Positions 922-37,579 of a DNA stretch of 39,634 nt are shown here, one piece after another. The translations under genes were made by a program, and so were the position numbers. The stretch is from Propionibacteriaceae bacterium (GTDB taxonomy: Bacteria > Actinomycetota > Actinomycetes > Propionibacteriales > Propionibacteriaceae). Within the stretch, counting starts at the first letter, position 1; each line of letters starts with the position of its first letter. The stretch spans positions 1 to 39,634 of the forward strand of contig JAIRXC010000097.1 in NCBI GenBank assembly GCA_031268515.1, written 5' to 3'. The notes under the pieces were generated by a model. The model did not search any database, was not told the origin of the DNA, and saw nothing but the letters and a program-made list of their open reading frames with translations.

Positions 922-2313
922 ATGAAGCGAATCGTGGCCTTGGCCGCCTTGGCGACGGCCGGCGCCCTCGCCTTGGCTGGCTGCGGCAACAGCGGCGGCG
1001 ACACTGCGGCGACAGACACCCCCAGCTCGAGCGCAACCTCTGACAATACGACCTCCTTGGCGACCGCCACGATCATCGCCCCCGGTTGGGCGCACTGGTC
1101 GATCGGCGACCTCGTCCAAAAGGACGGCAAAGACGTCCGCGAGTGGAATGACGCCACCTTCGGCGTCTATCCGCTGCCCGGCAACGACGGCAAACCCGCC
1201 CCGGTCTTCGCCGGCGGCTCCAACATCGGCATCTCGGCCGCTTCGCCCAACCAGGCCGGCGCCCGCGAGCTCATGCGGCTGATCTTCTCCGCCGACTACC
1301 AGCAGCTGCTGGGCAAGAACGGCCTCGGCCCGGCCAACTCTGACTACGTCAGCTCGCTCGGCACGGACGAGTTCGCCAAGGCCCTGATCGATTCGGCTTC
1401 GAACTCCAAGCTGACCCCGGCGGCGCCGGGCTGGGCCACGGTCGAGGCCTCCGGCAAACTGGAAGAGTTCTTCTCTAAGGTCGCCGACGGCGGCGACGTG
1501 GCCGCCTTGGCCGCCGAGTACGACGCCGTCTTCACGCCCTTGCTGAACGGCAAGACCTCCAGCGGCAACCTGCCCGATCCGGTCACGGACCCCGGCGACG
1601 CCAGCGGCCAGAACATCACCCTCTGGCTCATCGGCGCCGACACTCCGGACGAGGCCCGCACCTGGCTGAAAGAGGCCTACGCCGCCAAGACCGGCGGCAC
1701 GTTGACCATCGAGGAGCAGACCTGGGGCGACATCGTCACCAAGCTGACCACCTCGCTGCCCGACGCCAACAACACTCCTGACGTGACGGAGATCGGCAAC
1801 ACTCAGTCCCCGACCTTCACGAACGTCGGCGCTTTCGCCGACATCACGGACATGTACGAGGAGCTGGGCGGCTCGAAGCTGCTTCAGAGCTTCGTCGACG
1901 TGGGCGCTGTCGACGGCAAGAACTACACGCTGCCTTACTACTTCGGCTCCCGCTACATCTTCTACCGCAAAGACATCTACGCGGCCGCCGGCGTCAGCGT
2001 TCCCACGACCCTGACCGAGTTCAATGAGGCCGTCGTCACGATCACCGAAAAGAACCCCAACGGCATTGATGACTTCTCCGGCTTCTTCTTGGGCGGCCAG
2101 GATTGGCGTAATGGCATTTCGTGGATCTTCGCGAACGGCGGCGACCTGGCCAAGTTCGCCAACGGCGAATGGACGTCGACCTTGTCCGACCCCAACACGA
2201 TCAAAGGCCTAGAGCAATTGCAGACTCTCTTTGAGAAGGCTTCGAAGGCTCCGAACACGGCCAAAGATGAGAGCCCCTGGCTCTACATCAACGACTCAGA
2301 CGTCATTTCCTAA
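922..2313 (+). CDS. Sugar ABC transporter substrate-binding lipoprotein with apparently permuted lobe order
   Basis: Lipobox LALAGC; AAAGGAAA RBS just upstream; DasA/MalE-like motifs APGW...VYPLPGNDGKPAPVFAGGSNIGIS (normally C-terminal) precede ITLWLIGADTP...DVTEIGNTQSPTF...YTLPYYFGSRYIFYRKDIYAAAGV (normally N-terminal). Confidence 0.85.
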   Translation: MKRIVALAALATAGALALAGCGNSGGDTAATDTPSSSATSDNTTSLATATIIAPGWAHWSIGDLVQKDGKDVREWNDATFGVYPLPGNDGKPAPVFAGGSNIGISAASPNQAGARELMRLIFSADYQQLLGKNGLGPANSDYVSSLGTDEFAKALIDSASNSKLTPAAPGWATVEASGKLEEFFSKVADGGDVAALAAEYDAVFTPLLNGKTSSGNLPDPVTDPGDASGQNITLWLIGADTPDEARTWLKEAYAAKTGGTLTIEEQTWGDIVTKLTTSLPDANNTPDVTEIGNTQSPTFTNVGAFADITDMYEELGGSKLLQSFVDVGAVDGKNYTLPYYFGSRYIFYRKDIYAAAGVSVPTTLTEFNEAVVTITEKNPNGIDDFSGFFLGGQDWRNGISWIFANGGDLAKFANGEWTSTLSDPNTIKGLEQLQTLFEKASKAPNTAKDESPWLYINDSDVIS

Positions 2314-2600: not shown

Positions 2601-3602
2601 ATGTCCGAAGACACAGACGCCAAGGTCCGGCCCGAGCCCGCCGCGAAGAGCCGACAGCACGCCGGCGCCGTCGCCGAACCAGATGAAGTTCTTTCTCCCG
2701 CGCCCACCGCGCCACGCCGCCGGCGCGTCACCTGGACGCCCTATGTCCTTCTCGTACCCGCCGTCGTCATCTTGCTGGCCGCCTTGGCCTACCCCGTCGG
2801 CTGGCAGCTGGTCACCTCAACCCAGCAATTCGGCTTGGCTCAACAGTTCCACGTGCCGCCGGACTTCGTCGGCGCCGCCAACTACCTGACCTTGTTGGCG
2901 GACCCCCAGGTCTGGACCGTGGTCGCCCGCTCCCTCGCCTTCTGCCTGGTCAACGCGATTCTCACGGTCCTCATCGGCGTCGGCTTGGCCATGCTCATGA
3001 ACGCAGTCGGCAGGCTGCCCCGGCTGATCTTGCAGATCGCCTTGCTGCTGGCTTGGGCCATGCCGGTGGTCGCCTCGATGACGGTTTTCGTCTGGCTTTT
3101 CAATTGGCACACCGGCGTCGTCAACTGGCTTTTGACCCGGCTCGGCTTCGACTATGTCAACCACAACTGGTTGGCCAGCCCGCTCAGCTTCTATTTCGTC
3201 GCCACCGTCATCGTCGTTTGGATGTCCGTGCCGTTCGTCTCCTTCTCCGTCTACGCCGGCTTGACTCAGATTTCGGGCGAGGTGCTGGAGGCCGCCCAGT
3301 TGGACGGGGCTGGCGGCTGGCGCCGTTTCGCCAATATCACTTTGCCTATGATCCGGCCCGTCCTCATGATCGTCTTGCTTTTGCAAATCATCTGGGATCT
3401 GCGGGTCTTCACTCAGATCAAATTGCTCCAAGACGCCGGCGCCCCAATCGCCTCGACCGACTTGCTCGGCACCTACATCTACCGACTCGGCGTCGCCTCA
3501 TCCGACTTCGGCATGGCCGCCGCCATGAGCGTCTTCGTCCTCATCTTGACGATTCTGGTGTCGGCGCCCTACGTCCGCTCGCTCATCAAGGAGGACAACT
3601 GA
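2601..3602 (+). CDS. Carbohydrate ABC transporter permease (MalF-like)
   Basis: Multiple TM segments and the EAA-loop motif EAAQLDGAGGWRRFANITLPMIRPV. Confidence 0.93.
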   Translation: MSEDTDAKVRPEPAAKSRQHAGAVAEPDEVLSPAPTAPRRRRVTWTPYVLLVPAVVILLAALAYPVGWQLVTSTQQFGLAQQFHVPPDFVGAANYLTLLADPQVWTVVARSLAFCLVNAILTVLIGVGLAMLMNAVGRLPRLILQIALLLAWAMPVVASMTVFVWLFNWHTGVVNWLLTRLGFDYVNHNWLASPLSFYFVATVIVVWMSVPFVSFSVYAGLTQISGEVLEAAQLDGAGGWRRFANITLPMIRPVLMIVLLLQIIWDLRVFTQIKLLQDAGAPIASTDLLGTYIYRLGVASSDFGMAAAMSVFVLILTILVSAPYVRSLIKEDN

Positions 3603-3603
3603 C

Positions 3604-4464
3604 ATGGCCACTGCCACCACCGCGCCGGCTGCCGCCTTCCGCCCGGGCCGCCTGCTGGCCACCGCCGCTGCCATCGTTGTCGCCTTGATCTGGGTGTTCC
3701 CGGTCTATTGGATGGTCAACTCATCGTTGCTGCCCAACGTCATCCTGACATCGGCCACGCCTCGTTTCGTACCGACCGGCTTTATCGACAACTACGTCGC
3801 CGTCATCAAAAGCGGCGGCTTCCTGAACGCTTTGGGCACCAGCTTGCTTGTCACATTGATCGCCGTCGCCGCCTGTCTTTTGTTCGCCTTCTGCGCGGCC
3901 TTGGCGATCTCGCGCTATAAGTTCAAGGGCCGTACGAGCTTCGTCCTGACCATCTTGTTCATCCAGATGCTGCCGGCAGAAGGTTTGTTCGTCGCTCAAT
4001 ACAAGCTGTTGTCATCAGCCGACCTGCTCAACAATGCCGGCGGCTTGGCCGTTCTCTACACCGCCGCCGTCGTCCCCTTCACAATCTGGATGCTGCGCGG
4101 CTTCGTCGCCGGAGTGCCAGCCGACCTGGAAGAAGCCGCCATGGTCGACGGCTGTTCACGCGGCCAAGCTTTCTTCCGCATCACCTTCCCACTGCTGGCC
4201 CCAGGCCTGGTCGCCTCTGGCGTCTACGCCTTTTTGCAGGCTTGGAACGAGTTCACGATCGCCCTCGTCATCATGCAAAAGGAAAATTCCCATACGCTGC
4301 CGCTGTGGCTGCGCAGCTTCCTCATGCAATCGAACAGCCGGGCCACGGACTGGGGCCAGGTGATGGCCGCCTCTACGCTGGTGGCCGTGCCGGTCATCAT
4401 TTTCTTCCTCATCGTCCAGGGCCGTCTGACTTCGGGCCTGGTGGCCGGCGCGGTCAAAGGCTGA
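3604..4464 (+). CDS. Carbohydrate ABC transporter permease (MalG-like)
   Basis: EEAAMVDGCSRGQAFFRITFPLLAPG EAA motif; TM segments; 1 nt after the upstream permease stop. Confidence 0.93.
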   Translation: MATATTAPAAAFRPGRLLATAAAIVVALIWVFPVYWMVNSSLLPNVILTSATPRFVPTGFIDNYVAVIKSGGFLNALGTSLLVTLIAVAACLLFAFCAALAISRYKFKGRTSFVLTILFIQMLPAEGLFVAQYKLLSSADLLNNAGGLAVLYTAAVVPFTIWMLRGFVAGVPADLEEAAMVDGCSRGQAFFRITFPLLAPGLVASGVYAFLQAWNEFTIALVIMQKENSHTLPLWLRSFLMQSNSRATDWGQVMAASTLVAVPVIIFFLIVQGRLTSGLVAGAVKG

Positions 4465-4468
4465 CGCG

Positions 4469-5407
4469 GTGGCCGTTTCGACCCCGCGCCCGTCTCTGCC
4501 CTCGTCCGCCGCACGTGGCCTCCACCTCGGCCTCGACATCGGCGGCACCAAGACTCAAGCTGTCATTGTCAACGCCCGGTTGGCCACCTTGGCTGAGGCT
4601 TCCGCGCCGACCAGGCCCGGCCCGGAGGGGGTCCTCGCCACCATCGACGAGGTGACCGGGTTGCTCGGCGCCAATCTCACCCGCTTCGCCTCAATCGGCG
4701 TCGGCATCCCCGGCCTGGTCGACTTCCGGACCGGCCGGGTCCGCCAAGCCGTCAACGTCGGGCTGCGTGATCTCGATCTGGCGGCCGCCTTGGCTGCCCG
4801 GACAACCTGCCCGGTCCGGGTCGACAACGATGTCAAAGCGACCGCTCTGGGGGCGGCCTACGCCCTGCCGGGAGCCGGCGGCGACCTCGTCTATCTCAAT
4901 GTCGGCACCGGCATCGCTTTAGCCGCCGTCGTCGATGGCCGCTTGTTGCGGGGCCACGACAACGCCGCCGGCGAGATCGGCCACCTGGCCGTCGACCCGG
5001 GCGGCGACCTTTGCCCCTGCGGCCAGCGGGGTTGCTTGGAGACCTTGGCGGCCGGTTGGTCGGTCTCGCAGCGGTTGGCCCAGGCTGGCCTCGACCTGGC
5101 CAGCTTGGCGGACGACCCGGCGCCGGCGGCCGTGTCGGAGCGCCGCCGGCTGCTGCGCGGGCTGTCCCTGGCGGCCAGCCTGGCCGCCCTCAGCTTCGAC
5201 CCGGCGACGATCCTTTTCGGCGGCGGCGTCATCACGACGGCGGTCGGTTTGGTCGAAAAGGTGGCGGCCCACCTGGCCGAACAAGAGGCCGGTTCGTCCT
5301 TCCTGGCCCACCTGGGGTTGAGCCGGCGGGTCGTCCAAGCCCCGGCCGGCTTGCCCATCGCCGCCATCGGCGCCGCCGCTTTGGGCTTTGCCGAAAGCGT
5401 TGGCTAG
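4469..5407 (+). CDS. ROK family sugar kinase/transcriptional regulator
   Basis: GLDIGGTKTQAVIV, GIPGLVDFRTG, NVGTGIALA, AAGEIGHLAVDPGGDLCPCGQRGCLETLAAG; GTG start 4469. Confidence 0.9.
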   Translation: MAVSTPRPSLPSSAARGLHLGLDIGGTKTQAVIVNARLATLAEASAPTRPGPEGVLATIDEVTGLLGANLTRFASIGVGIPGLVDFRTGRVRQAVNVGLRDLDLAAALAARTTCPVRVDNDVKATALGAAYALPGAGGDLVYLNVGTGIALAAVVDGRLLRGHDNAAGEIGHLAVDPGGDLCPCGQRGCLETLAAGWSVSQRLAQAGLDLASLADDPAPAAVSERRRLLRGLSLAASLAALSFDPATILFGGGVITTAVGLVEKVAAHLAEQEAGSSFLAHLGLSRRVVQAPAGLPIAAIGAAALGFAESVG

Positions 5408-9809: not shown

Positions 9810-11087
9810 GTGAACGTCTACAAAGTCGAAGCTTTTGATGTCTGGAATTTCCTGTTCAGCCTTGCCCACTGTCCCCAGATGGTGCGCTGGCGCGGCGATT
9901 TCGACGGCTTCATCGACCTGGACACGCTGGGCCAAGCGGTCGAGGCCTCCTACAAAGCCATGCCGCTGATCGCCGCCCGCTTCGTCGACGGTTTGCTACG
10001 GCCGGCCTGGCGGCCACGGACAGTCGCCTTGGACGAGGTCCTCCAATTGGTCGAGCGGCCCGCCGAACCGGAGGCGGCGGCGCAAGCGGCCTTGGCCGTC
10101 GACGTCGACATCGCCCAGGGGCCGCAGCTGCGCCTGACGGTCATCCGCCAAGACGACCACGACACGCTCTGCGCCGTCGTCAACCACATGTTGTGCGACG
10201 GCGTCGGTTTCAAGGACTACCTGGCCGAACTCAGCCGCCTCTACAGCCAGATCGCCGCCGGCCGCCAGCCCGACCCGTTGCCGCCGCTGCCGCGGGGCAT
10301 CGGCCCGGTCGCCGCCCGCTACACACCCTCCGAACGCCTCCACATCGCCCTCGGCCGGATGGAGCAATTCAACCGCCAGGCCATCGACGCGGCCGGCGCG
10401 GTCTCCTTCGAGCGGCCGGACGGTCCAGACCAGTTCATTGTCAAGACGGTGCCGGCGGCGGTTTTCGAGCCGGCCCGTCTCGGCGCCAAAGCCCTCGGCG
10501 GCACGGTCAACGACCTGCTCATGGCCGCCTTCGCGCGAGCCTGGTGCGCCGAGACCGGCGCCTGCCGTATGGCCTTGCCCTCGACCGTCGACCTGCGCGC
10601 CTTCTTGCCGCCTGGCCAACGGCCAGCCCTGGCTCACCTGGCCGGCAACTGCATGGTCGCCTTGGAGATTCCGCCGGGACAGCCGCTGGCCGACACGCTG
10701 CAGCAAGTCAGCTCGCAGATGGCGGTGCACAAACAAGGCATCGCGCCGTTGCGGACCGCCCTCAAATGGCCGATCGCCACGACCACCTGCCCCTACCCGC
10801 TACTCAAGCGCAACTACGGCAGTTTTCTCAACCTGCCCGGTGTCTCCTTCTCCAACATCGGCGTCATCGACCCCGAAAAGATCGCCTTCGCCGGCCTCGC
10901 CCTTACCGCCTCCCACCTCTGCACGGCGGTCAAACCGCCGCCGTATTTCCAGCTGGTCGCCACCTCCTTCCAAGGTTCGCTGACCTTGTCGGCCAACCTG
11001 CGCGGCGACGGGCAAGCGGCAGTTTTGGCCCTACGGGTCTTCCAGGCCATGGCCGACGAGTTCGCGACGCTAAAACCGCCCAGCTGA
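9810..11087 (+). CDS. Stand-alone condensation-domain-like/acyltransferase-superfamily protein
   Basis: CAVVNHMLCDGVGFKDYLAELSRLY resembles the HHxxxDG motif (first His replaced by Asn); VNDLLMAAFARAW and SFSNIGVID resemble conserved C-domain regions; no carrier-protein or adenylation domain nearby. Confidence 0.65.
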   Translation: MNVYKVEAFDVWNFLFSLAHCPQMVRWRGDFDGFIDLDTLGQAVEASYKAMPLIAARFVDGLLRPAWRPRTVALDEVLQLVERPAEPEAAAQAALAVDVDIAQGPQLRLTVIRQDDHDTLCAVVNHMLCDGVGFKDYLAELSRLYSQIAAGRQPDPLPPLPRGIGPVAARYTPSERLHIALGRMEQFNRQAIDAAGAVSFERPDGPDQFIVKTVPAAVFEPARLGAKALGGTVNDLLMAAFARAWCAETGACRMALPSTVDLRAFLPPGQRPALAHLAGNCMVALEIPPGQPLADTLQQVSSQMAVHKQGIAPLRTALKWPIATTTCPYPLLKRNYGSFLNLPGVSFSNIGVIDPEKIAFAGLALTASHLCTAVKPPPYFQLVATSFQGSLTLSANLRGDGQAAVLALRVFQAMADEFATLKPPS

Positions 11088-11218
11088 CAAGGCTGCGGCA
11101 ACTGGCCTACGCAGCCTGGGCCCGGGCTCCCGCGGGCTGGCCCAATCGAGCAAGCACGGGGCCTTTGGCCCGCCTGGAAGCACCGGGCCAGGACCCCTGT
11201 GAAACGGGCCGGGGCGGT

Positions 11219-12769
11219 TCAGTGGAAGAAATGGCGCGTGCCGGTGAAATACAATGCCACGCCCGCCGCCGCACAGGCCGCGATCGTCTCGTCGTCGCGG
11301 ATCGAGCCGCCCGGCTCGACGATGGCCCTGACGCCGGCGGCGATGAGGATGGCAGGACCGTCGGCGAAGGGGAAGAAGGCGTCCGAGGCGGCCAGCGCCC
11401 CCAGAGCGCGGCCGCCGGCCCGCTCGACCGCCAACCGGCAAGCGTCGACCCGGTTGACCTGGCCCATGCCGACGCCGACCGAAGCGCCGTCTGAAGCCAA
11501 CAAGATGGCGTTCGACTTGACCGACCGGCAGGCCCGCCAAGCGAAGGCGAGGTCGGCTAGTTGGGCGGCGTCAACCGCCGGGCCGGCCTCAAGGGTCCAA
11601 GCGGCGGGGTCGTCGCCGGGCGCGTCGACCGCGTCGGAGTCTTGGACGAGGAGGCCGCCAGAAAGGAAACGGCGCTCGCGGCGGCGAGGGTAGGGGCCGG
11701 CTTGGAGCAGACGCAGGTTTTTCTTGGCGCTAAGAAGAGCGAGAGCGTCGGGATCGTAGGCCGGGGCGACGACGACCTCCGTGAAGATCGGCCGGATCTG
11801 CTCAGCCAAGGCCAAGGTGACAGGACGGTTGGCCGCGATGACGCCGCCGTACGCGGAAACGGGGTCGCAGGCGTGGGCTTTGCGGTGGGCTTCGGCGATG
11901 TCCGCGCCGACGGCGATGCCGCAGGGATTGGCGTGTTTGACGACGGCGACGGCGGGGGCGGCGAAATCGTAGGCGGCGCGGTAGGCGGCGTCGGCGTCAG
12001 TGTAGTTGTTGTACGACATTGGTTTGCCGCCCAGTTGGGCCGCCTGGGCCAGGCCGCCGGCGTCGGAGCCGGTGTAGAGGGCGGCCCGCTGGTGGGCGTT
12101 CTCGCCGTAACGCAACTCAGCCTGCCGATGCCAAGCGCCGCCGAGCCAGACGGGGAAGGCGGCGTCGTCGGAGCCGGCGGCCTCGGTCAGCCAGGTCGCG
12201 ACCTGGACGTCGTAACCAGCGGTGTGTTGGAAGGCGGCGGCGGCCAAGGCCCGGCGTTCGGCCAGACTGTAGCCGCCGGCGGCCAACGCGGCCCGCAGGC
12301 CGCCGTATTGTCCCGGCGATGTCACAACCGCCAAACAGGCGTGGTTCTTGGCGGCGGCCCGGACCATGGCGGGGCCGCCGATGTCGATCTGCTCGACGCA
12401 GTCGTCGAAGCCGGCCCCGGCGGCGACGGTTTGGGCGAAGGGATAGAGATTGGAGATGACAAGATCGAAAGGTTCGATGCCGAGGCTGGCCAACTGATCG
12501 CTGTGGGAGGCGAGCCGCCGATCGGCCAACAGCCCGGCGTGGACGGCCGGATGGAGGGTCTTGACGCGCCCGTCTAGGCACTCCGGGAAGCCGGTCAGTT
12601 CGGACACCTCGGTGACAAGGCAGCCGGCGGCGCGCAGGACGGCGGCAGTGCTGCCAGTCGAAACCAAGGCGACCCCGGCGGCGGCCAGCTCTTGGCCCAG
12701 TTCAGCCAAGCCAGTCTTGTCGTAGACACTGACAAGAGCGCGTTTCAAGGGGATACGGTCGGCCATCAT
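11219..12769 (-). CDS. purH: Bifunctional AICAR formyltransferase/IMP cyclohydrolase
   Basis: [101 protein letters not shown]. Start at 12769 overlaps the purN stop (ATGA); the ORF track starts further upstream. Confidence 0.96.
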
Positions 12770-17101: not shown

Positions 17102-17761
17102 TCAATAGGGCCATTGGTTGGAGTATGACTGTCCTTGACTGGCGCGCCAGGCGCTAGTAATGCGATCTATCAGATTGTCAACCTCGGAGGAGGGCCGATT
17201 GTCCGGAAAGGACCGGTCGGCTCGCCGATGAGCACCGCGGGCAGACTCAGCGCGGCGCATCGCGTCAGCCATGTGGCCAGCCAAGACTCCGAAGGCCACG
17301 CCATCTTTCCGGTAGAGCAGCCAGACTTTTGACAACGCCTCTTCGACTGACTTTTGATCACAGCCAGGATTCATGAAGTCGGCGAAGTGCCACAGCAACC
17401 ACAGCTCAAAGGAAGGGTTCGACAGAGCGATGTGGATTTTCTGATACCGCTCGGCCGTCTGCAGAGCCTGGCACACCTTCTCGGTGCGTCCATCCCAATC
17501 GAAGACAACCCACACCTCGTCAAACGCTGGATCAATGCCGCGCGCGTGGTCGCCCCTTTGGAGTCTCCTGGCCTCCTCGACCAGCGACACGGGATCAGGG
17601 TGTTGGCCAGACGTGGCTTTCACGACGACAGCGCGGCTTCGGAGACGTTCCCGCACGAATGCGAAATAGCTGGACTCGGTCTTTCCTTCACACACTATGA
17701 GGAACCGCCGGTGAGGCGTCAGAGACGGGCGACGGCGCTTACCGCGCGAGGAGCGGTCCAT
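17102..17761 (-). CDS. RloB-like (AbiLii-like, TOPRIM-related) protein
   Basis: FLIVCEGKTESSYFAFVRERLRSRAVVVK, DEVWVVFDWDGRTEKVCQAL, IALSNPSFELWLLWHF. Start at 17761 overlaps the upstream ATPase stop by 4 bp (ATGA). Confidence 0.85.
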   Translation of the reverse strand: MDRSSRGKRRRPSLTPHRRFLIVCEGKTESSYFAFVRERLRSRAVVVKATSGQHPDPVSLVEEARRLQRGDHARGIDPAFDEVWVVFDWDGRTEKVCQALQTAERYQKIHIALSNPSFELWLLWHFADFMNPGCDQKSVEEALSKVWLLYRKDGVAFGVLAGHMADAMRRAESARGAHRRADRSFPDNRPSSEVDNLIDRITSAWRASQGQSYSNQWPY

Positions 17762-19131
17762 CAGCGGCCACCGCCAGATGGAACCGCGGGGGGCGGCCCT
17801 GGCCAACTGGACAAGAGCGGCAAGCCGCCAAAGCGTCCGAGAAGGTATGACTTCTCGGTGTCCGCCGTCCCGCGGGGGCGGTAGTCCGAAAGGGCAATCA
17901 GCTCGGTGGCGCCCTCCGCGTTCTTCTCTGTGAACCACACTTGATCGCGGTCCAAAGCGAAACCATCGCCGCCATAGTTGCCTAGCAGACTCACGTCGTG
18001 TGTTGTGAATATGATTTGCGCACCCTTGGGATTGGTGACGCTCGACTGGAACAGGCTGACCACCGCCCGGACCAGCAGGGGATGCAGGCTGGAATCAATC
18101 TCGTCAACCAGCCAGACGCCCCCGCTGCTCAACGCGTGGTCAATCTGACCCGCCATCGAATACAAGATCATCGTGCCAGTCGACTCAGCAGCCCAAGGCA
18201 GAGTGACAAGGTCAGGCTGTCCGACCGACCGCAGGTGGCTCAACTTGGGTCGGCGCTGCTGTTCAATCACTGCGGCCCGAAGCCGCGCCAACGTCTCCGG
18301 GTCGTTGGGAATGGGCGGCTCGTCTGGCTCTGCCTGCACGAAAGTGAGTTGGTCTACGGGCGGGAGTTTGTCGGGCAATCGAAACTCGACGCCGCCGACG
18401 CCCGTGTCGGCGCGCCGTAGGAATTCGACGAGCCAGGCCATGAACGCCGGATCGCGGTTGGCGCGTTGCGTCGTGAGGAATTGGCACTCGTCCCACCGCC
18501 GCGGGTCAGGAGTGAAAATAGGGCTGAGCGTAAGGCGAAACCAGTCGTACACACCGGTTAGGCTCTCGTGGTTGTCGCGGGCCGCCACCGATAAGAATAA
18601 TGTGTTGTCACGAGTCGCCTCCACAAGGGACCGCTTGTGACCTGGCACATACGGTGACACCTTGATGTGCGGCCGCCCAGCCGCGTCGCGGCTGCGCCGG
18701 AACAAGGTGCGCGTGGCACGGCGGCCACCAGTTGGCTGGTTGACCCGCAGCTCCTCCGTGTCAACAACGCCATCCAAGAGGGAAAAAGCGTATGTGTAAT
18801 CTCGGTCCTCCTGACGGAACTTGATTTCCGTTGCGAACGGTTCGGCGAGCGAGGAGTCATCCAGCAGGAACGGGTATGTGGGCAACGGCACGCCGGGTTC
18901 CATGACGGCCGATCTGCGGATAATGCTTCGGACATAGTCCAGGGCTGACAGAACCGTCGACTTGCCTGAAGCATTGGCGCCGTAGATGGCGGCCACCGGG
19001 GTCAGGTCTCCCCCAGCCAGTCCGCCTTCGACTTCAAGCCGGGACTTGGCCCCTGCGCCGCTGCGCCACATCACCAGCTCTTGCGCAGTTCTCACTGAGA
19101 GAAAGTTGGCGACTTTAAAGCTGATAAGCAC
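17761..19131 (-). CDS. RloA-like AAA_15 family ATPase (AbiLi-like)
   Basis: FKVANFLSVRTAQELVM, Walker A IYGANASGKSTVLSAL, GVWLVDEIDSSLHPLLVRAVVSLF (Walker B), AQIIFTTHDVSLLG (H-loop). Confidence 0.88.
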   Translation of the reverse strand: MLISFKVANFLSVRTAQELVMWRSGAGAKSRLEVEGGLAGGDLTPVAAIYGANASGKSTVLSALDYVRSIIRRSAVMEPGVPLPTYPFLLDDSSLAEPFATEIKFRQEDRDYTYAFSLLDGVVDTEELRVNQPTGGRRATRTLFRRSRDAAGRPHIKVSPYVPGHKRSLVEATRDNTLFLSVAARDNHESLTGVYDWFRLTLSPIFTPDPRRWDECQFLTTQRANRDPAFMAWLVEFLRRADTGVGGVEFRLPDKLPPVDQLTFVQAEPDEPPIPNDPETLARLRAAVIEQQRRPKLSHLRSVGQPDLVTLPWAAESTGTMILYSMAGQIDHALSSGGVWLVDEIDSSLHPLLVRAVVSLFQSSVTNPKGAQIIFTTHDVSLLGNYGGDGFALDRDQVWFTEKNAEGATELIALSDYRPRGTADTEKSYLLGRFGGLPLLSSWPGPPPAVPSGGGR

Positions 19132-21951: not shown

Positions 21952-22968
21952 TCAAGAAACCTTTAAATAGCCGGCTAGGCGCGCGAAATCTTCGATCCCC
22001 AGGGTTTCGCCGCGGGCTTCCGGGGAGATTCCCGCCGCCGCCAGGGCCGAACGCAGCCGGTCCGCCTCGTAGCGGTCCGCCAGGGCTGAACGCAGCATCT
22101 TGCGGCGGCGGGCGAAAGCGGCGTCGACAAGGGCGAAAACTTCTTGCCGGCTGGCCGGAGAGGCCGGCGGGTCACGGCGAGTCAGGCGGACAAGGCCCGA
22201 TTCGACGTTGGGTTTAGGCCAAAAGACGCTGGCTGGGACGGTTCCGGCGCGGGCCGCGGCGGCGTGCCAGGCCAGCTTGGCCGAAGGGATGCCGTAGACC
22301 TTGGAGCCGGGGGGCGCGGCCAGGCGGTCGGCCACTTCGAGTTGGACCATGACGAGCCCGCCTGTCAGCGTCGGCCAGGCGGCGAGGGCGTGGAGGAGGG
22401 CGGGGACGGCGACGTTGTAGGGGAGGTTGGCGACCAGACAGGTCGGCGGCGGCCCCGGCAGAGCCGTGATCGCCAAGGCGTCCGCCTCGACTGCCCAGAG
22501 CGGGCCGTCCGCGCCGGTCCAGGCGCCGTCGTAGGCGTCCTCTCGGGGTCCGCTGAAACTGTCGCGGGGAAAGCCGCCAGAGCCGCCCGGCCCGGGAAGA
22601 CCGCCGGAATCGTCCGGCCCAGGAAAGCCGCCGCTTGGAAGCGGGCCGGCAAGGCCTAGTTCCGCCATTGTCTGGGGCAGCCGGCGGGCCAGCGCCGGCT
22701 CGACCTCTACGGCGACGACGCGGGCGCCGGCCGCGAGCAGGCCGGCGGTCAGAGAGCCCAGGCCGGGGCCGATCTCCAGCACCGTGTCATCCGGGCCGAC
22801 GCCCGCGGCTTCGACAATCCGGCGCACCGTGTTGGCGTCTATGACGAAGTTCTGGCCCCGCCGTTTGCTCGGCCGCAACTGGAGTTCGGCGGCCAGGCGG
22901 CGTACGGACGAGGGGTCCAGCAAGGCCGTCACCGGGGGCCGGCCGTCGCGTCGGCCGACGAGTGACAT
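21952..22968 (-). CDS. rsmA: 16S rRNA (adenine1518-N6/adenine1519-N6)-dimethyltransferase
   Basis: [83 protein letters not shown]. Confidence 0.95.
22552..22632. repeat. 27-bp tandem repeat (x3, imperfect) inside rsmA
   Basis: Encodes [27 protein letters not shown] within a Gly/Pro-rich insertion. Confidence 0.75.
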
Positions 22969-25051: not shown

Positions 25052-27193
25052 ATGGTGACCGCTGTGCCTTCGACCCTGCTGTTCTCGGCTGTGGTGCCGA
25101 TGTACAACGTCGAGGCTTATCTTCCCGACCTTCTCGAATCGCTTGACCGGCAAATCCTCGGCGATTACGCCCTCGAATGTGTTTTCGTGGACGACGGCTC
25201 GACCGATGACAGCGCAGACCTTGTGGCCGCCTGGTTGGAGTCCTCACCCAGCCCGGCGGCGGCAGGCGGGCGGCTCATCCGCCAAGCCAACCAGGGGGTC
25301 AGCGCAGCCCGCAACACAGGGTTAGCCGCCGCGACGGGCGACTGGGTGACATTCCCCGACCCGGATGATTTTTTAGACGATGGCTATTTCGCGGCCGTGG
25401 CCCGGCACTTAGCCCAATCCGCCGGTTTTCCGCTTACTCTCTTGGCCACGAACATCGTCTTTTTCCGTGAAATGACTGGAACATTTGAAGACAGCCACGG
25501 CCTCAAGGACAAGTTCGCCCGCGGCCCCCGCAACGTCCGTCTAGCTGACGACCCCGAGGCAATCCAATGTTCCATGGCCGCCGCTTTCATCCCCCGTACG
25601 CTGTTGTCGGCATCCGGCGTCCAACTCACGTCCGACCACCACGCTTCGGAAGACGCACATGCCATCGTCCGCGTGCTGCTGGCCCAAACTGATCCTGCGA
25701 TCGCCTTGGTCCCGGCGGCACGCTACTACTACCGTCGCCGCGCCGCCGGCAACTCGGCCACCCAAACCTACAGACTGCGCCGTGAGAGCTTCATCGACCG
25801 CTTCGCCGACTACGTGCCGATCGCCCGCGCCGCCAGCCAGAGGCCAGACGGGCTCCCCCGCTGGTTCGCCAACCATCTTCTCTACGAGTTGGCGTGGCCG
25901 TATCTCAAGGAACTCGACCCCGCTCGCCGCGCTCTCCTGTCTCCCGCCGACAAAACCGAATTCCTCCAAATCAGCGCCGACCTTTGCTCTTTCATCGAGC
26001 CACGCTGGATCCGCACCTACAGTTTCGCCGCTTTGACCGGCGAGCTGCGCAGCCTTTTCCTCGCCTTCCGGGGCGAACCGTTAGATGACCAGCCGGTCTG
26101 GGCCGAAGCCTGGGATCAGCGCCGCCGCCAGGTCCTCCTGCGCTACCTCTACGCCGGCCCGCCGCCGAGTGAGGACCTCCGTGTGGGCGGGCGGCTGGCC
26201 GAGCCCGCCGCCGCCAAGGTGGCCGCACTCGATTATTTCGGCCAGACGACCCTGTGGGAACGGCGGCTCTGGGTCTGCCTTGACGGCGACATCAGCATTG
26301 CCCTTGACGGACGGCAGCGAGAGTTGCGTTTCGGCTTGGCTGGCCGGACTGGCGCCATCGGCGGGCCCGGACCGGCCGGAGTCAGCCCAGACCTCCGCGC
26401 CGCCGCCAGTGTCAGCGCCGCGGCTGTCGAAGCTTATTTCTCGGCCCCGCGGGCAGCTGAGAGAACCGTGCCGTTGCGGCGGCCGCCGGCCCTGCCCCGC
26501 TCTAGCTTCGCCGACCAGGCCAAACTCCTCGCCCGCCAGGCTGGTTTGGAGGCCTACACCGTACTCAATCAACGTTTCCCCCAGCAATTTGGCGTCCACA
26601 TTCCAACGGCCGCCCTCGGCTGGGGGCCCGTCTTCCGCAATTGGCCGCGGCGGCTGGCCGTGGAATCTCCGGCCGCCCGCCACCGCTATGGCCAAGCTTG
26701 GGTTTTCGCGGACCGCGCCCGGTCGGCGGGCGGGCCGGCCGAGGCTTTCTACGCCCACCTGAGCCGAACCCGCTCCAACCTGGACTGTTATTTCGTCCTT
26801 GACCCGGACACGCCCGACTGGGAACGGCTGACCAAACGAGGGTTCCAACTCGTCCCTTTCCGCTCAACCGATCACCTGTCTTTGTTTCGACAGGCTGACC
26901 GCGTCATCGTGTCGGGGCTCGACGAGTCTCTTTTGCGTCCCGCTCCCTACGCTGATTACCCGTTCCCGCTCAGCCGTTCAGGCTTGTTGACGCTGTTGTT
27001 CCCCGACCTCGGGAACGCCGATCTGGCCGCCCGGCTCAACCAGTGGGACATCGACCAGGTGGTTTGCCGGGAAGGACAGGACTGGGAGGCGTTGACGGCG
27101 GACGGGACAGCCTGCAAGCTGACGGCGAATGAAGTCGTGCCAACCCAGCTGGGCGCTTGGGACCAGGTGCAGGCCAAGTTGGCGGAAATGTGA
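25052..27193 (+). CDS. GT2 glycosyltransferase fused to a shortened/degenerate CDP-glycerol glycerophosphotransferase (TagF-like) region
   Basis: N-terminal GT2 motif FSAVVPMYNVEAYLPDLLESLDRQ...CVFVDDGSTDDS. C-terminal part aligns collinearly with the paralog at 32089-34896 (PRRLAVES, YFVL...DWERL, FRSTDHL, PAPYADYPFPL) but ends halfway through the TagF domain. Confidence 0.85.
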   Translation: MVTAVPSTLLFSAVVPMYNVEAYLPDLLESLDRQILGDYALECVFVDDGSTDDSADLVAAWLESSPSPAAAGGRLIRQANQGVSAARNTGLAAATGDWVTFPDPDDFLDDGYFAAVARHLAQSAGFPLTLLATNIVFFREMTGTFEDSHGLKDKFARGPRNVRLADDPEAIQCSMAAAFIPRTLLSASGVQLTSDHHASEDAHAIVRVLLAQTDPAIALVPAARYYYRRRAAGNSATQTYRLRRESFIDRFADYVPIARAASQRPDGLPRWFANHLLYELAWPYLKELDPARRALLSPADKTEFLQISADLCSFIEPRWIRTYSFAALTGELRSLFLAFRGEPLDDQPVWAEAWDQRRRQVLLRYLYAGPPPSEDLRVGGRLAEPAAAKVAALDYFGQTTLWERRLWVCLDGDISIALDGRQRELRFGLAGRTGAIGGPGPAGVSPDLRAAASVSAAAVEAYFSAPRAAERTVPLRRPPALPRSSFADQAKLLARQAGLEAYTVLNQRFPQQFGVHIPTAALGWGPVFRNWPRRLAVESPAARHRYGQAWVFADRARSAGGPAEAFYAHLSRTRSNLDCYFVLDPDTPDWERLTKRGFQLVPFRSTDHLSLFRQADRVIVSGLDESLLRPAPYADYPFPLSRSGLLTLLFPDLGNADLAARLNQWDIDQVVCREGQDWEALTADGTACKLTANEVVPTQLGAWDQVQAKLAEM

Positions 27194-27246
27194 ACAGCGG
27201 CCGGCGCGCCATCGGCTGCCCGGCCCCTGGCGTAAGGGCTTGGGCC

Positions 27247-28662
27247 ATGCGTGGGAGAAACCTAATTGCCGCCAGCGCCGCTTTTTGCCTCGCCACCGTC
27301 CTCATCGCGGGACCGGCGGCGCCTCTCCCTGCGGCTCAGGCCGACCCGGACGCCCCAAGCCTCCCATTGGTCGAGGTTCCGGTCCTAGGGCTTGGCCAAG
27401 ACACCGGCTATCCCAGCGTGCAAGGCGGCGGCACTGACGGCGTCCACGGTTACGCCGTCCTCCTCCGGCGGACAGCGGACGGCGACGTGACCCGCCTTCT
27501 GCGTTACACGCTGCCGAGCGGCGACTCTCCCGCCGACGCCGCCGCTGTCAAGGCTCTCGACTACCCGCTGCAAGAGCCAGGCGACGTCATGAATTGGCTA
27601 GGCCACGGCAATGACATCGCCTACGACCCTTTCCGCGACCGCCTCGTACTGACTCTTTTCGGCGGCACAAATGATGTGGCCGAAAAACCGGACAACCACC
27701 GCCGCCTCGTCGGTTTTGTGGATCCGGTTGACCTGCGGCCTCAACCAGACGCCGTGACAGGCGAAGCGGTCCGCGAACTCGCCGCCAACGCTTTTTCTTT
27801 GTGCTACGAGCCCTCGCGCCAGATTTTCGCGGCCCAACGTTCCACGAAGCTTGATTTTTATAACAACGATTTTTCTCCCGTCAAAGTCGGCAAAGGCAAG
27901 AGCCTAGCCATCGGGACTTTGGAGGGCACGGCGCAAGGCATCGACTGTGATAGCGACTACATTTACATTCTCCGTTGGCTGCCCGACGACGACACGACAC
28001 GAATACACGTTTTTAATTGGCAAGGCACCCTCATGGCCACCTACGAAGGCGGCGACGGCGAGGCTGAGCACATCTTTCACAACCCTGTCGACGGTTCCTT
28101 TTATCTAGGCGTTGACACCCCTGGCCAAGGCGGCGAGTTGCGCCGCCTTGAGGACTTTCACGTGACAGTGTCTTTCGACCCCAACGGAGGCAGCGGCGAA
28201 ATGGTTTCGACCGGCTGGTTAACCGGGCTGGCCATCACGGTGCCAACGAACCAGTTCACGTTCTCGGACCATCGTTTCAGCGGCTGGCGCTTGATACGCG
28301 ACGAGGATGGGGACGTCCAATATCGTGATCCTCAAACTGCCAGCAACACCGGCTTCTACAAGATCGGCAAGGGGCCGGCGGGCTGGGAGCCCGCTCTCTA
28401 CGGCGACGCGGACAGTATTGTCGTGCCCGGCGGCTGCGGCGGCGTCACTCTTCGGGCCCAGTGGGGCAGCGTTCCTGCTCCGGCGCCGTCTCCGACCTCA
28501 GCTCCCCCGCCGGCTGCTGAACCGGCCGCGCCAAGGTCCCCTTCAGGCCCGCTCATCGCCAGCGGTCTTATCTTCCTCAGCGTCTTGCTGGCGGTCGGAG
28601 TGTCCATTGCGGTTGTCAGACACCGGCGGCCGCAAGCCAAACCTCAACGAGACCTACCCTAA
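27247..28662 (+). CDS. Secreted, C-terminally membrane-anchored surface protein with propeller-like repeats and an InlB B-repeat-like segment
   Basis: Signal peptide at Met 27247; blades-like YDPFRDRLVLTLFGG, YEPSRQIFAAQ; VTVSFDPNGGSGEMVS...FSGWRL (Listeria/Bacteroides-type repeat); Pro/Ala linker; C-terminal TM and basic tail RHRRPQAKPQ. Confidence 0.65.
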   Translation: MRGRNLIAASAAFCLATVLIAGPAAPLPAAQADPDAPSLPLVEVPVLGLGQDTGYPSVQGGGTDGVHGYAVLLRRTADGDVTRLLRYTLPSGDSPADAAAVKALDYPLQEPGDVMNWLGHGNDIAYDPFRDRLVLTLFGGTNDVAEKPDNHRRLVGFVDPVDLRPQPDAVTGEAVRELAANAFSLCYEPSRQIFAAQRSTKLDFYNNDFSPVKVGKGKSLAIGTLEGTAQGIDCDSDYIYILRWLPDDDTTRIHVFNWQGTLMATYEGGDGEAEHIFHNPVDGSFYLGVDTPGQGGELRRLEDFHVTVSFDPNGGSGEMVSTGWLTGLAITVPTNQFTFSDHRFSGWRLIRDEDGDVQYRDPQTASNTGFYKIGKGPAGWEPALYGDADSIVVPGGCGGVTLRAQWGSVPAPAPSPTSAPPPAAEPAAPRSPSGPLIASGLIFLSVLLAVGVSIAVVRHRRPQAKPQRDLP

Positions 28663-28690
28663 CTCTTCGCCGGCCGGCTGCTTCCGGCGC

Positions 28691-31600
28691 TCACAGGCCC
28701 GTTTCGGCGATCAGCCGAGCCGCCAGCCGAGCCGCCGCGGCACCATCGTCGAAGGGTGCCACCTTTTGGCGCAGGGCCGCGGCTCTGCCGCGCCAGCGGT
28801 CCGGCTCGTCCAGCGCGGCGTGGATAGCAGCAGGCAAGCCGTCGGCGTGTTCGGCCCGGGGCCCGGCCAGTGAATCCTCGTACGGCCACAGCGGGGGCAT
28901 GTCAGCGAAGAATCTTTTCTCGTCTGGCGTGAAATAGGCCATGGGAAGGCCCGTCAAAAGATAGTCGAAGCGTATGGAGGAATAATCGAAGAGCCCGATG
29001 TCAGACGCCAGAATCAAATCGTTGACATCAGGGTAGCCGGTGGCGTCGATGATTCCGGGGGCGGCGAGGGCTTTGGCAGCAGCCCGCCGGTTCGACGGGT
29101 GGGCGCGGAAAATCATGACATAGTCTCCGCCCAGTTGGCGGAGCAGTCGGCTGGGGTCGAAGAAGGACACCAAGGGGGCCCGCCAGGGGTCTGTGGTGGC
29201 GTAGCCGCGCCAGGTCGGTGCGTAAAGAATGGCCCGTTGGTCCGGGCGGATGCCGAAACACTGCCGCAATTCTTCCCGCAATCCCGCCGGCGGGTCAACC
29301 AGCCTGTCGTTCCGAGGCGCGCCGATCTCCCAGAAATCAGCGCGTACGGGCGTGTATTCTCGGTAAAGCCGTGTCGCCAAGGGAGATGGCGACACGAGGA
29401 CGTCCCAAAGCTGCATACGCTCGAGGTTCTGTTTAATTTTCAGGTCGCTGTAGCCGTTTTTCCGCCACCAGGCCACGCCCATCATTTTGAAGGGGTGCCC
29501 GTGATAAGTCTGGACGACGGTCTGGCCGGACCGGGGAGTGAAATAAGCGGGCAGTTCGTGGTTGACGCACACAACGGCGCTACTTCTAAGCGTTTCGTAG
29601 TATTCGGACGTTCCGATGATCACGGACCTTTGCCCCCGCGGTACGCGTACGCTTCCAGACTGAATGCCCCAGACGATCTGCTCCGCCCGCCCCATCTCGG
29701 CCAACCGCCGGGCCAAAGCCAACTGGCTGTCATCGACCGCGTCCCCCGCCAAGCACTGCGTATAGATAACCGGCTTAAGCGGCGGCCGGCTTGCACGATA
29801 GGCGGTTTGGAGGGCACGTTGCGCATGAGGCAGCCGCACGGTGGGGTCGCCGTCGGTCGTCAGGCGGAACCGCAGGCGGCCCGGCAAAGATGGCGCGGCG
29901 AAAAATAGCCGCAGCCGTCCGCGCCCGACGGGCTTGTCCGCCAAGTGCCACAACGGCTCTTCCGCCACTGTGATGGGCAGCGGCAAGTCGGAGCAGACCA
30001 GGGGGGGGCGGACTAGGACCCGCAGTTCATAGAGGCCTGCGGCGGCTAAGGGGACTCGCCAAGCCGGACCCTGTTTGAGCCTGGGGTCAAAAACAGCAGC
30101 GATCTGGCCGTCGGGGCGGCCACGCAGCGTTGCCCGCAAGGTGTTCTGTTCCCCGACAAAGGCCATCTTCAAATCACCGGCGCGCCGGGCACCGACGCGG
30201 AACACAAACTCGATGGCCTCGTCGCGGACGTCCAGGGCGGTCAGATGAGCCGACCAACCAGCCATCGGCAAGGTGTGAGACGGTGCCCGGCCGGCAGTCA
30301 GAGCGCGCGTGGTTTTGAAGGCCCGGACGACGACGCCACGACCTTCCGAGTGGCGGGCGCGTAAAACAATGCCATCGTCGCGGAGGACGAGGTCGTGGCG
30401 CGGGTTGACCCGTTCGCCGCCCCAGGCGGTTTGGACAGGTCCGCGAGCCGTGATCCCGCCGGCTTGGAATTCGAGGTTGAGATCCCAGGCCAGTGACCGT
30501 CGCCGGGAGCGGCGGAGGGCGTCGGTCAGGCCTTGGATTGGGAAAGACAGTTCGAAGCCGCAGTCGGCGTAGTCGAGTTGGAAATGCCCGCCAGCTTCCG
30601 CGGCCGCCGCCGACTTCGCCCGCCGGACCGCCGCCGGTAAAGATGGTCCGCCCCGGCGGCCAGCGAGGCGGGCCTCGAGCCGGGAGTTTGGGTCGCGGAC
30701 CGATCCGACGTAAGCGGCTCCCCGGATGAGCAGCCGGTTTCCGGTCTCGTCCCATTTGACGGCCTCTACGCCGCTCGCGGGCACGAGCTGCGACTGACTG
30801 GGACATCGGGTTCGGGGCGCTCCGGCGGTCTCGAGGTCAAGGGACCAATAGGGCACGGCACCGGCCAAGCCGCCCGCCGGGTCAGCCTCGAAAACCCACT
30901 CTTTAAAGTAAAGGCCGCGGGCGGCGACGAAGGACAAGGCCGTTTCAAAGGTCGAATTGAGAATGATGTCGTGGAGTCGCCGGGCCTGGACGGGGACTCG
31001 CTCTTGGTAGGTTTGGCTGTCCAGTTCGGCCAGCGCCCAAGCCAGAAAATCGCGGGCGATCTCGAAATACGCCGGGTGCCCGCCGCCGATCTCTCCGAGA
31101 GTCAGTTGGTTGGTCGCCAAAATCTGGGCCAACCGCTCTGTCCGTTCCCGTTCTAGGCCTTCTGCCTGGAGATAGTCGAGAGTCGTCCGAAAGGCTTCCG
31201 TCCTGCTGCGCAGGCTGTCTGGTTGGCCGAGGAGCTGAGTGGCAGCGTCCCGCGTGCCCCGGCGTCGCCAACGCAAAGCCGGACGGGTCAAAATGTCGAA
31301 AGCGTTGGCTTTCGCGAAGGCCCGTGCCGCTAGAAGCTGGTCTTCGAAACGAACGCCTTCTGGCTGCGGTCCGACCTGCTCCATGTAGAAATCACGACGA
31401 TAGACCCGCGCACACATCAAGGCGTTAACCATGATGTCCGGAAATTGCCTCAGCGTGGCTCGCCGGCGAAGGCGGCGATGAGCTGCTGTGATATATTCAG
31501 GTGGGGCGCTGTCTTGCCCGTCCGTCAAAATCGTGTACGGCGCGACAGCGAAATCTGAACCAGTTCTCAGCAAAGACAGGAGAGCGTTTCGATAATGCCC

Positions 31601-32029
31601 AGGATAGACCACGTCGTCGGAGTCGAAGAAAGCGATATATTTACCCGTCGCCTGGGCTGCCCCGATATTGCGGGCGGCTCCCGGCCCGCGGTTGGGCTGC
31701 CGGAGGGCGAGGAAGCGGCGGTCCGCCGCGGCGAAGGCTTCGGCGATCTCGGCGGTCGCGTCGGTCGAACCGTCGTCGACGACGATGACTTGAAACCGGG
31801 GCCATTTCTGCCGGCGGAGGCTGTCGAGGCAGGCTGCGATATAATCTTCCGTGTTGTACGCTGCAATGACGACTGACAGCCGCGGCATCCCTGGATAGAT
31901 CGGCATCCGAACGCCTGAGCGGCTCTGCAGGATCGCCTGCCAGGTTGAATCCGACAAGACAGCCTTTAAACGCAAGGCAACAGCTTTGCGCAGCCGTCGG
32001 TAGGTGTTTCGCACCGACTCTCCCCCCAA
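28691..32029 (-). CDS. Bifunctional GT2 glycosyltransferase/CDP-glycerol:glycerophosphate glycerophosphotransferase-like protein
   Basis: LSVVIAAYNTEDYIAACLDSLRRQ...VIVVDDGSTDATAE; C-terminal QTYHGHPFKMMG, ILYAPTWRGYA, FRAHPSN, DLILASDIGLFDYSSIRFDYLLTGLPMAYF. Confidence 0.92.
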   Translation of the reverse strand: MGGESVRNTYRRLRKAVALRLKAVLSDSTWQAILQSRSGVRMPIYPGMPRLSVVIAAYNTEDYIAACLDSLRRQKWPRFQVIVVDDGSTDATAEIAEAFAAADRRFLALRQPNRGPGAARNIGAAQATGKYIAFFDSDDVVYPGHYRNALLSLLRTGSDFAVAPYTILTDGQDSAPPEYITAAHRRLRRRATLRQFPDIMVNALMCARVYRRDFYMEQVGPQPEGVRFEDQLLAARAFAKANAFDILTRPALRWRRRGTRDAATQLLGQPDSLRSRTEAFRTTLDYLQAEGLERERTERLAQILATNQLTLGEIGGGHPAYFEIARDFLAWALAELDSQTYQERVPVQARRLHDIILNSTFETALSFVAARGLYFKEWVFEADPAGGLAGAVPYWSLDLETAGAPRTRCPSQSQLVPASGVEAVKWDETGNRLLIRGAAYVGSVRDPNSRLEARLAGRRGGPSLPAAVRRAKSAAAAEAGGHFQLDYADCGFELSFPIQGLTDALRRSRRRSLAWDLNLEFQAGGITARGPVQTAWGGERVNPRHDLVLRDDGIVLRARHSEGRGVVVRAFKTTRALTAGRAPSHTLPMAGWSAHLTALDVRDEAIEFVFRVGARRAGDLKMAFVGEQNTLRATLRGRPDGQIAAVFDPRLKQGPAWRVPLAAAGLYELRVLVRPPLVCSDLPLPITVAEEPLWHLADKPVGRGRLRLFFAAPSLPGRLRFRLTTDGDPTVRLPHAQRALQTAYRASRPPLKPVIYTQCLAGDAVDDSQLALARRLAEMGRAEQIVWGIQSGSVRVPRGQRSVIIGTSEYYETLRSSAVVCVNHELPAYFTPRSGQTVVQTYHGHPFKMMGVAWWRKNGYSDLKIKQNLERMQLWDVLVSPSPLATRLYREYTPVRADFWEIGAPRNDRLVDPPAGLREELRQCFGIRPDQRAILYAPTWRGYATTDPWRAPLVSFFDPSRLLRQLGGDYVMIFRAHPSNRRAAAKALAAPGIIDATGYPDVNDLILASDIGLFDYSSIRFDYLLTGLPMAYFTPDEKRFFADMPPLWPYEDSLAGPRAEHADGLPAAIHAALDEPDRWRGRAAALRQKVAPFDDGAAAARLAARLIAETGL

Positions 32030-32088
32030 CTTTTCGCCGGATCAGACCTGGATTCTCCCATTGCGCCTGCCCACAGCCAAGTTCAGCG

Positions 32089-34896: not shown

Positions 34897-34983
34897 AGGC
34901 GGCGGAGCCAGGGCTTACGGCCTCGACGCCTCTTGTTGAAGCGCTGTCTCCCGTAGCTTTAGTGCTCACGCTAGGGTGGAGGA

Positions 34984-36420
34984 ATGACGTTGAAGCGGCT
35001 TCTCGTCCGAGGTGGCAAGACCCCTGAGTGTGTTCTGTCCCCGGAAGCGACGCTGGCTTACATGCCGTCGGCCGTCTTCGGGTCAAACTCCGGCAATCTC
35101 CTTTTCAGTCATTCCGTCATGCGCGCCTTGGCCGTGCCCGACGCCAAAGTCGTGGCGGACGCCTTCGCCCTCCAACTCTCAGACGAGGCTGACCTGGCCG
35201 GCCGTGTCAACGAACAGTTCGACGCCGTCATCCTCCCCTTGGCGAATGCCTTCCGTTCCGATTTTCTTCCTCAGCTCAACCGGTTGACGACTTTGATTGA
35301 CTCGCTGACCATCCCCATCGTCATCGTCGGAGTCGGCTGCCAGATCCCCAGGGGTGTCACCCCTGCCACCGCCGCAACCGGCAACTCCAAAGTGGCTGCC
35401 GCTGTCACCGCTTTCATGAGGGCTGCTTTGGAACGCTCAACTAGGGTTGGGGTGCGTGGCGAGATCACTCGCGCCTACCTTCAGGCCCTTGGCTTTGGCG
35501 ACAGCGCCGTCGAAGTCATCGGCTGCCCTTCTCTTTATGACAAAGGTCCAGATCTGCGAGTCGAACGACGGTCTGACCGTTTAACAAAAGACTCTCTGCT
35601 AACTTTCAACACAGCTTTTAGCGTCCCCGGGGCGGGGACATTCGTTCAGCGCGTCATGCGCCACTATCCCCGCTCTGAATACGTCGGCCAACTGCACACG
35701 GAATTAGCTCTCCTTCTCTGGGGAGAATCCATTCCGAGAGTTGATCGGCGTCTCGTCTCTCATCCTGGCCATCAGCTCTATCGCGAGGACCGGGTCCGCT
35801 TCTTTATCGACCCGCTGACCTGGACCCGCTATTTCGAGTCACGTGAATTTTCCGTCGGCACCCGCATCCACGGAACCATGGCGGCCGTCCTGGGAGGCGC
35901 GCCCGCCGTGATATTCGACTGGGACTCTAGGACCACCGAACTGGCCGACTACCACCAGTTACCGCACCAGACGATCCGCTCACTCGACGAAGCCAGAGGC
36001 CTCGCTCAGATTTACGAGGAGCTTGACCTTGGCCCGCTCAACCGGGCGGTTTCTGAGAATTTCCGCCGCTACACGGCTTTCCTTGAAGCCAATGGGCTCC
36101 GCCACATCTGGCAGCCTGGACGAGCTAACCCTGATTATTCCCGTCGGATCGAGAAAGCACCTTACCCGCCGGCCGTCGGATCGATCTACGGCGATTCCCG
36201 CGATCAAATCCTTGACCGTCTCCGTTGGCTCCGCCAAGGACCAAACACCGACAAAACCCGAAGCTATAGCGCTTATGCGCCGACTTTCTCGGAAAAATCC
36301 GCTTGCCAACTAACGCATGACCATCTAAGCCAAATAACGGAAGAGATCGCCTCCCTCCGGCGCGAGGTCGCGGCCCTTAAAGCAGACACACCTCACTCAG
36401 AGTCTCTTGCCAAAACATGA
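34984..36420 (+). CDS. Polysaccharide pyruvyl transferase family protein (copy 1)
   Basis: GNLLFSHSVMRAL, PIVIVGVGCQ, VGVRGEITRAYLQALGFGDSAVEVIGCPSLY, FSVGTRIHGTMAAVLGGAPAVIFDWDSRTTELADYHQLP. Confidence 0.82.
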   Translation: MTLKRLLVRGGKTPECVLSPEATLAYMPSAVFGSNSGNLLFSHSVMRALAVPDAKVVADAFALQLSDEADLAGRVNEQFDAVILPLANAFRSDFLPQLNRLTTLIDSLTIPIVIVGVGCQIPRGVTPATAATGNSKVAAAVTAFMRAALERSTRVGVRGEITRAYLQALGFGDSAVEVIGCPSLYDKGPDLRVERRSDRLTKDSLLTFNTAFSVPGAGTFVQRVMRHYPRSEYVGQLHTELALLLWGESIPRVDRRLVSHPGHQLYREDRVRFFIDPLTWTRYFESREFSVGTRIHGTMAAVLGGAPAVIFDWDSRTTELADYHQLPHQTIRSLDEARGLAQIYEELDLGPLNRAVSENFRRYTAFLEANGLRHIWQPGRANPDYSRRIEKAPYPPAVGSIYGDSRDQILDRLRWLRQGPNTDKTRSYSAYAPTFSEKSACQLTHDHLSQITEEIASLRREVAALKADTPHSESLAKT

Positions 36421-36454
36421 CAACCCGCACCAGATTGATCTCCTCGAAGCAGCC

Positions 36455-37420: not shown

Positions 37421-37446
37421 TTATAGCTTCACTGCGGCAGCTATAA
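37421..37446. terminator. Inverted repeat TTATAGCT-N10-AGCTATAA directly after the GT2 stop codon (possible terminator hairpin)
   Basis: 8-bp perfect arms; a second hairpin GCAAGCTT-CACCTT-AAGCTTGC follows at 37513-37534. No strong U-tract after either. Confidence 0.4.
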
Positions 37447-37579
37447 TTCGCTGAGAGCGCCGAAACTGCTTGAAGCCCGTCTCTCGCGGAGCACAGCGTA
37501 AGCGGCTTAAGGGCAAGCTTCACCTTAAGCTTGCTCCCATCTCGTTGAGTTTTCACTAACTGCTAGCTAAGATGTTCGA

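Follow-up and report, generated by a model that had tools for sequence, protein, structure and literature searches.

We found that the open reading frame at positions 922–2313 of the window (the whole 39,634-nucleotide stretch of Propionibacteriaceae DNA analysed here) quite likely codes for a family-1 (MalE-like) sugar-binding lipoprotein that has undergone natural circular permutation and serves a CUT1-type ABC importer. Its product runs from a signal peptide through the lipobox cysteine and a linker into what is normally the C-terminal half, and from there through a second linker into the N-terminal half and the stop codon (Table 1). The frame is intact over 463 codons (463 amino acids), with neither frameshift nor internal stop, and a ribosome-binding-like GAAAGGAAA lies immediately 5′ of its ATG. 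A first-pass annotation of this DNA had proposed a reversed order of halves within one intact ORF; half-by-half tblastn searches and mapping onto MalE and PF01547 bore this out, and the coordinates, signal peptide, lipobox (LALAGC), two linkers and both halves proved to be as described there. The start of the C-terminal half had to be moved: the half itself stood, and its homology begins around position 1048 (TTSLAT) rather than at 1066. Homology supports circular permutation within one uninterrupted ORF, in that both parts, each present once, are homologous to one protein, their order is exchanged, the old termini are joined in frame and the new termini lie in a loop.

Both halves are homologous to family-1 solute-binding proteins (SBP_bac_1, MalE-like), which likewise belong to sugar importer operons with two permeases. 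These proteins are read N-terminal half first, whereas the order here is reversed. The Pfam profiles PF01547 (81.1 bits; cut-off 26) and PF13416 (78.8 bits; cut-off 27) each matched in two stretches, but not in the colinear N-to-C order of the profiles, the C-terminal half (residues 43–211) standing ahead of the N-terminal half (residues 232–463). The assignment of the halves is independent of close relatives: residues 77–170 match residues 265–361 of the E. coli-type MalE precursor, and residues 242–440 match positions 5–209 of PF01547. The best solved binding proteins also align to the window protein in two reversed blocks. Beta-glucosides and beta-1,2-glucooligosaccharides are the ligands of the nearest solved structures (for example a beta-glycoside-binding protein, 7c63–7c71, and a beta-1,2-glucooligosaccharide-binding protein, 5ysb–5ysf), which at ~20% identity do not fix the substrate.

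To compare the order with that in relatives, the two halves were used as separate tblastn queries, and relatives carrying both were counted. After removal of duplicates, the N-terminal half preceded the C-terminal half in 59 distinct fetched loci, and the opposite order was seen in the window gene only. The C-terminal half is as much as 87% identical to the relatives' second half, and the N-terminal half up to 79–80% identical to their first, both matching one orthologous group at ~80% identity overall. Homologs with the same order, to which the first-pass annotation had pointed as a check, did not turn up in ~1,070 genomes (19 members of the genus, 199 of the family, plus samples drawn from the order and the class), leaving the window gene alone in its reversed state. 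Nor did any other sequence in these genomes match continuously across the join; among the matches listed, each ends there and covers one half. A plasmid collection yielded no permuted relative covering most of the query, and one match from Nonomuraea comprised two pieces at 32% identity that may be joined in either order. A separate ancestry of the two halves was considered and set aside, as separate trees placed the window gene with neither firm support nor firm conflict.

The relatives also explain what each join consists of. In these, signal peptide and cysteine are followed by a short linker (ending, for example, in GQNITLWL) and a first half with a YINDSD-like end; a variable loop then ends in a TSLAAATIMAPGW-like motif, and the second half closes with LLN, about two further residues and the stop. 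In the window gene, by comparison, the linker after the cysteine passes into TTSLATATIIAPGW, so that J1 joins the old N-terminal linker to the old inter-half loop. At J2 the old C-terminus is fused in frame to the old N-terminal linker, with LLNGK continuing into TSSGNLPDPVTDPGDASGQNITLWL, and at the far end YINDSDVIS runs into TAA (J3). One cut thus falls in the linker after the lipobox, another in the variable loop and the third at the C-terminal end. An internal start giving two polypeptides was rejected: near J2 there is no in-frame ATG, and a single chain is therefore expected. Four in-frame GTG/TTG codons occur between positions 1498 and 1702, each without an obvious ribosome-binding sequence.

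Table 1 Features of the permuted gene and its operon in the window
Feature	Position	Strand	Basis
ROK-family protein, 3′ part (regulator or kinase), cut by contig start	12..731	+	PF00480 from profile position 54
Lipoprotein signal peptide MKRIVALAALATAGALALAG	922..981	+	Sequence; relatives with equal signal peptide type
Lipobox Cys (LALAGC), predicted lipid anchor	982..984	+	Sequence; Cys invariant in 37 relatives
Linker A, J1 near its end at ~1036–1056	985..1047	+	Compared with linkers and loops of relatives
C-terminal half, family-1 solute-binding protein, TTSLATATIIAPGW...FTPLLNGK, first in order	1048..1554	+	tblastn; MalE
Linker B TSSGNLPDPVTDPGDASGQN, contains J2	1555..1614	+	Compared with ends and starts of relatives
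N-terminal half, ITLWLIGADTP...YINDSDVIS, last in order	1615..2310	+	tblastn; PF01547 positions 5–209
TAA stop and J3 (old loop to downstream DNA)	2311..2313	+	Sequence
First sugar ABC permease, MalF/UgpA-like	2601..3602	+	PF00528; NCBIfam UgpA/GlcT/MalF below cut-offs
Second sugar ABC permease, MalG-like	3604..4464	+	PF00528; NCBIfam MalG/GlcU below cut-offs
ROK-family sugar kinase-like protein	4469..5407	+	PF00480; similar gene downstream in many relatives

The gene occupies the operon slot of its normally ordered orthologues, between a ROK-family gene that is a conserved upstream neighbour in relatives and two linked CUT1-type permease genes that hold the same position there. The gap to the first permease gene, 287 nt, is at the long end; in relatives, estimated gaps are mostly <170 nt and reach up to 241 nt. 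We found no second, normally ordered copy in the assembled genome, a 2.5-Mb assembly in 220 contigs. Its nearest kin include Propionibacteriaceae MAGs and, from this and the fragmentation, we infer that the source genome is itself a MAG.

Further loci of the window lie apart from this operon. An AAA_21 ATPase gene and an adjacent RloB-like gene (17105–19131, minus strand) match the PADLOC AbiLi and AbiLii models and probably form an AbiL-type anti-phage abortive infection system. A cell-surface polymer cluster (25052–39001) holds, besides glycosyl transferase family 2 genes, two polysaccharide pyruvyl transferase genes and two that encode CDP-glycerol glycerophosphotransferases with glycosyl transferase domains. 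At 9810–11494 (plus strand), two long overlapping frames of 425 and 433 amino acids, neither with a Pfam or PADLOC match, may be no more than non-coding frames in GC-rich DNA. At 21955–22968 (minus strand), the match to rRNA adenine dimethylase (KsgA-like) is split into two stretches, the better one aligning residues 178–335 with profile positions 103–261; this split points to an insertion or to an extended N-terminus.

The first-pass annotation had spoken of an exchanged order of lobes and had placed the new termini in the crossover region; both points needed revision. In the family-1 fold of maltose-binding protein, each lobe is made of both sequence halves. The exchanged pieces are therefore sequence halves rather than structural lobes. 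In an AF2 model of a normally ordered orthologue (pLDDT 89), which matches solved family-1 folds over its whole chain, the loop that was cut is a beta-hairpin (strands 271–275 and 284–289), and the model places the new termini at the tip of this variable hairpin between the halves. By MalE numbering and the general structure of maltose-binding protein, this point falls within the C-terminal domain and outside the hinge. The permuted protein itself modelled poorly, at pLDDT 45 and pTM 0.37, from a shallow, 15-row split alignment; in deeper split alignments the rows of the N-half were misplaced, so that the protein could be folded with 15 rows only.

Several signs of constraint accompany this architecture. 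The window gene has kept 67 of the 68 residues invariant in relatives, the exception being a change from I to L. Pairwise dN/dS with near relatives is ~0.25, similar to the values among the relatives themselves, and the terminal branch of the gene stands at 0.2 (0.21 for a relative from the genus). Read along the branch, these values point to constraint over a span that includes time both before and after the permutation, and they may predate a very recent event. We consider the permutation probably genuine and recent and the gene probably functional.

An assembler could, in principle, have misordered pieces of 1.4 kb of a gene that is truly in normal order, a caveat that the first-pass annotation had already raised and rightly so. 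The permuted order is carried by one MAG among the genomes searched, in an assembly of many contigs; no independent sequence with the same junctions turned up, nor did a scan of viral contigs with a J2 word give one, and each of the three breakpoints sits in linker-like sequence of simple composition. We nevertheless regard such an error as unlikely. It would need three separate joins (J1–J3), with no shared word of at least 15 bases at any of them, in sequence that is free of N. Each 21-mer tested at a junction, too, occurs just once in the genome, even when up to 2 mismatches are allowed. Retention of the ORF carries little weight by itself, because ~25–29% of random swaps preserve the reading frame in this GC-rich DNA. 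By contrast, among random three-breakpoint swaps in two relatives, just 5e-6 to 1e-5 kept both the frame and all boundaries, as the observed joins do; these figures are rough, coming from 1–2 events in 200,000. Most other examined genes on the contig, moreover, fit their families in expected length and order.

Even less probable, in our view, is a real rearrangement with a non-functional product, in a gene seen in decay very shortly after it was rearranged. No relative shares the order, as would be the case for a recent event, and the conservation of the gene could be a legacy of the time before the rearrangement. Yet the boundaries are those that a folded protein needs, whereas a random break usually destroys the fold; the signal peptide and the stop are both present and the frame between them is uninterrupted, the invariant residues have been kept, and a normal copy that would relieve selection was not found in the genome. 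A functional permuted gene accordingly remains our preferred reading, and its role is most likely that of its orthologues: a putative sugar-binding protein, anchored by a lipid, that supplies the importer encoded next to it. If so, the chain would fold to the same two-lobed binding protein and bind the orthologues' sugar, probably an oligosaccharide or glycoside, which would then pass to the permeases encoded downstream. Provided that the fold is kept, the lipid tether would shift from the first strand to a hairpin in the other domain.

How the swap arose was ascribed by the first-pass annotation to tandem duplication followed by partial loss, the classical model of circular permutation (PMC3320104). 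While the permutation itself is upheld by homology, this route was not demonstrated. The same annotation had seen each half once and no leftover C-lobe in the 287 nt before the permease gene, and indeed, protein and DNA comparisons against shuffles detected no C-half remnant in this interval. The total of 463 amino acids likewise lies within the length range of normal relatives. Because no remnant of a duplicate was detected and the length resembles that of unpermuted relatives, a direct swap of two neighbouring blocks accounts for the data as well as duplication and loss. In such an exchange, for example, the mature-domain DNA would have been excised and reinserted after being cut at a different point; alternatively, a tandem duplication would since have been fully trimmed. 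Searching for microhomology at the joins, we obtained longest common words of 6–8 bases between junction windows, the level of random windows. A repeat-mediated mechanism was therefore dropped, and with word overlaps at chance level neither duplication and loss nor direct exchange is demonstrated. We tentatively raise the possibility that a recent, functional permutation, in the same slot and still ~80% identical to its normal orthologues, came about by a one-step exchange of adjacent blocks rather than by duplication and gradual trimming.

Natural permutation has precedent among binding proteins. TpMglB-2 (Tp0684) of Treponema pallidum, a cluster Bc protein, is naturally permuted and serves an ABC importer as its lipid-anchored sugar-binding protein. 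D-glucose is its ligand and alters its shape, and the authors of that study also considered a tethering effect (PMC4990184). The window protein would resemble it in being a naturally permuted, lipid-anchored sugar binder of such an importer. TpMglB-2 differs, however, in its Type I/cluster B fold, and in that the first three N-lobe strands have moved to the end. It also belongs to a lineage distributed among treponemes and Gram-positives; identity in the permuted part is 13%. Membership of the window protein in cluster Bc was considered and rejected, as its Pfam matches are PF01547 and PF13416 only and the solved structures closest to it are those of family-1 sugar binders. Glycine-betaine-binding and molybdate-binding proteins and CysB are related by circular permutation as well (CPSARST family; PMC2395249), yet at <24% identity, whereas permuted and normal proteins are ~80% identical here. 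In the engineered permutant cpGltI, which works in a glutamate sensor, ligand binding was kept after the termini were moved (PMC6335823); cpGltI is a laboratory construct rather than a natural gene. For family-1 binding proteins, our searches, which covered open-licence papers, brought up no description of a natural permutation.

Natural permutation of binding proteins is thus already known from other clusters, and what looks unusual in the present case is its recent, clean appearance. The natural permutations cited above have diverged to the point where most of their sequence trail is lost. Here, a permuted gene can be set beside normal orthologues that are ~80% identical and share its operon slot, with three precise joins between old and new order. 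If the permutation is confirmed, its steps, its fitness cost and the move of the tether to the other domain would become directly testable in a well-understood type of transporter.
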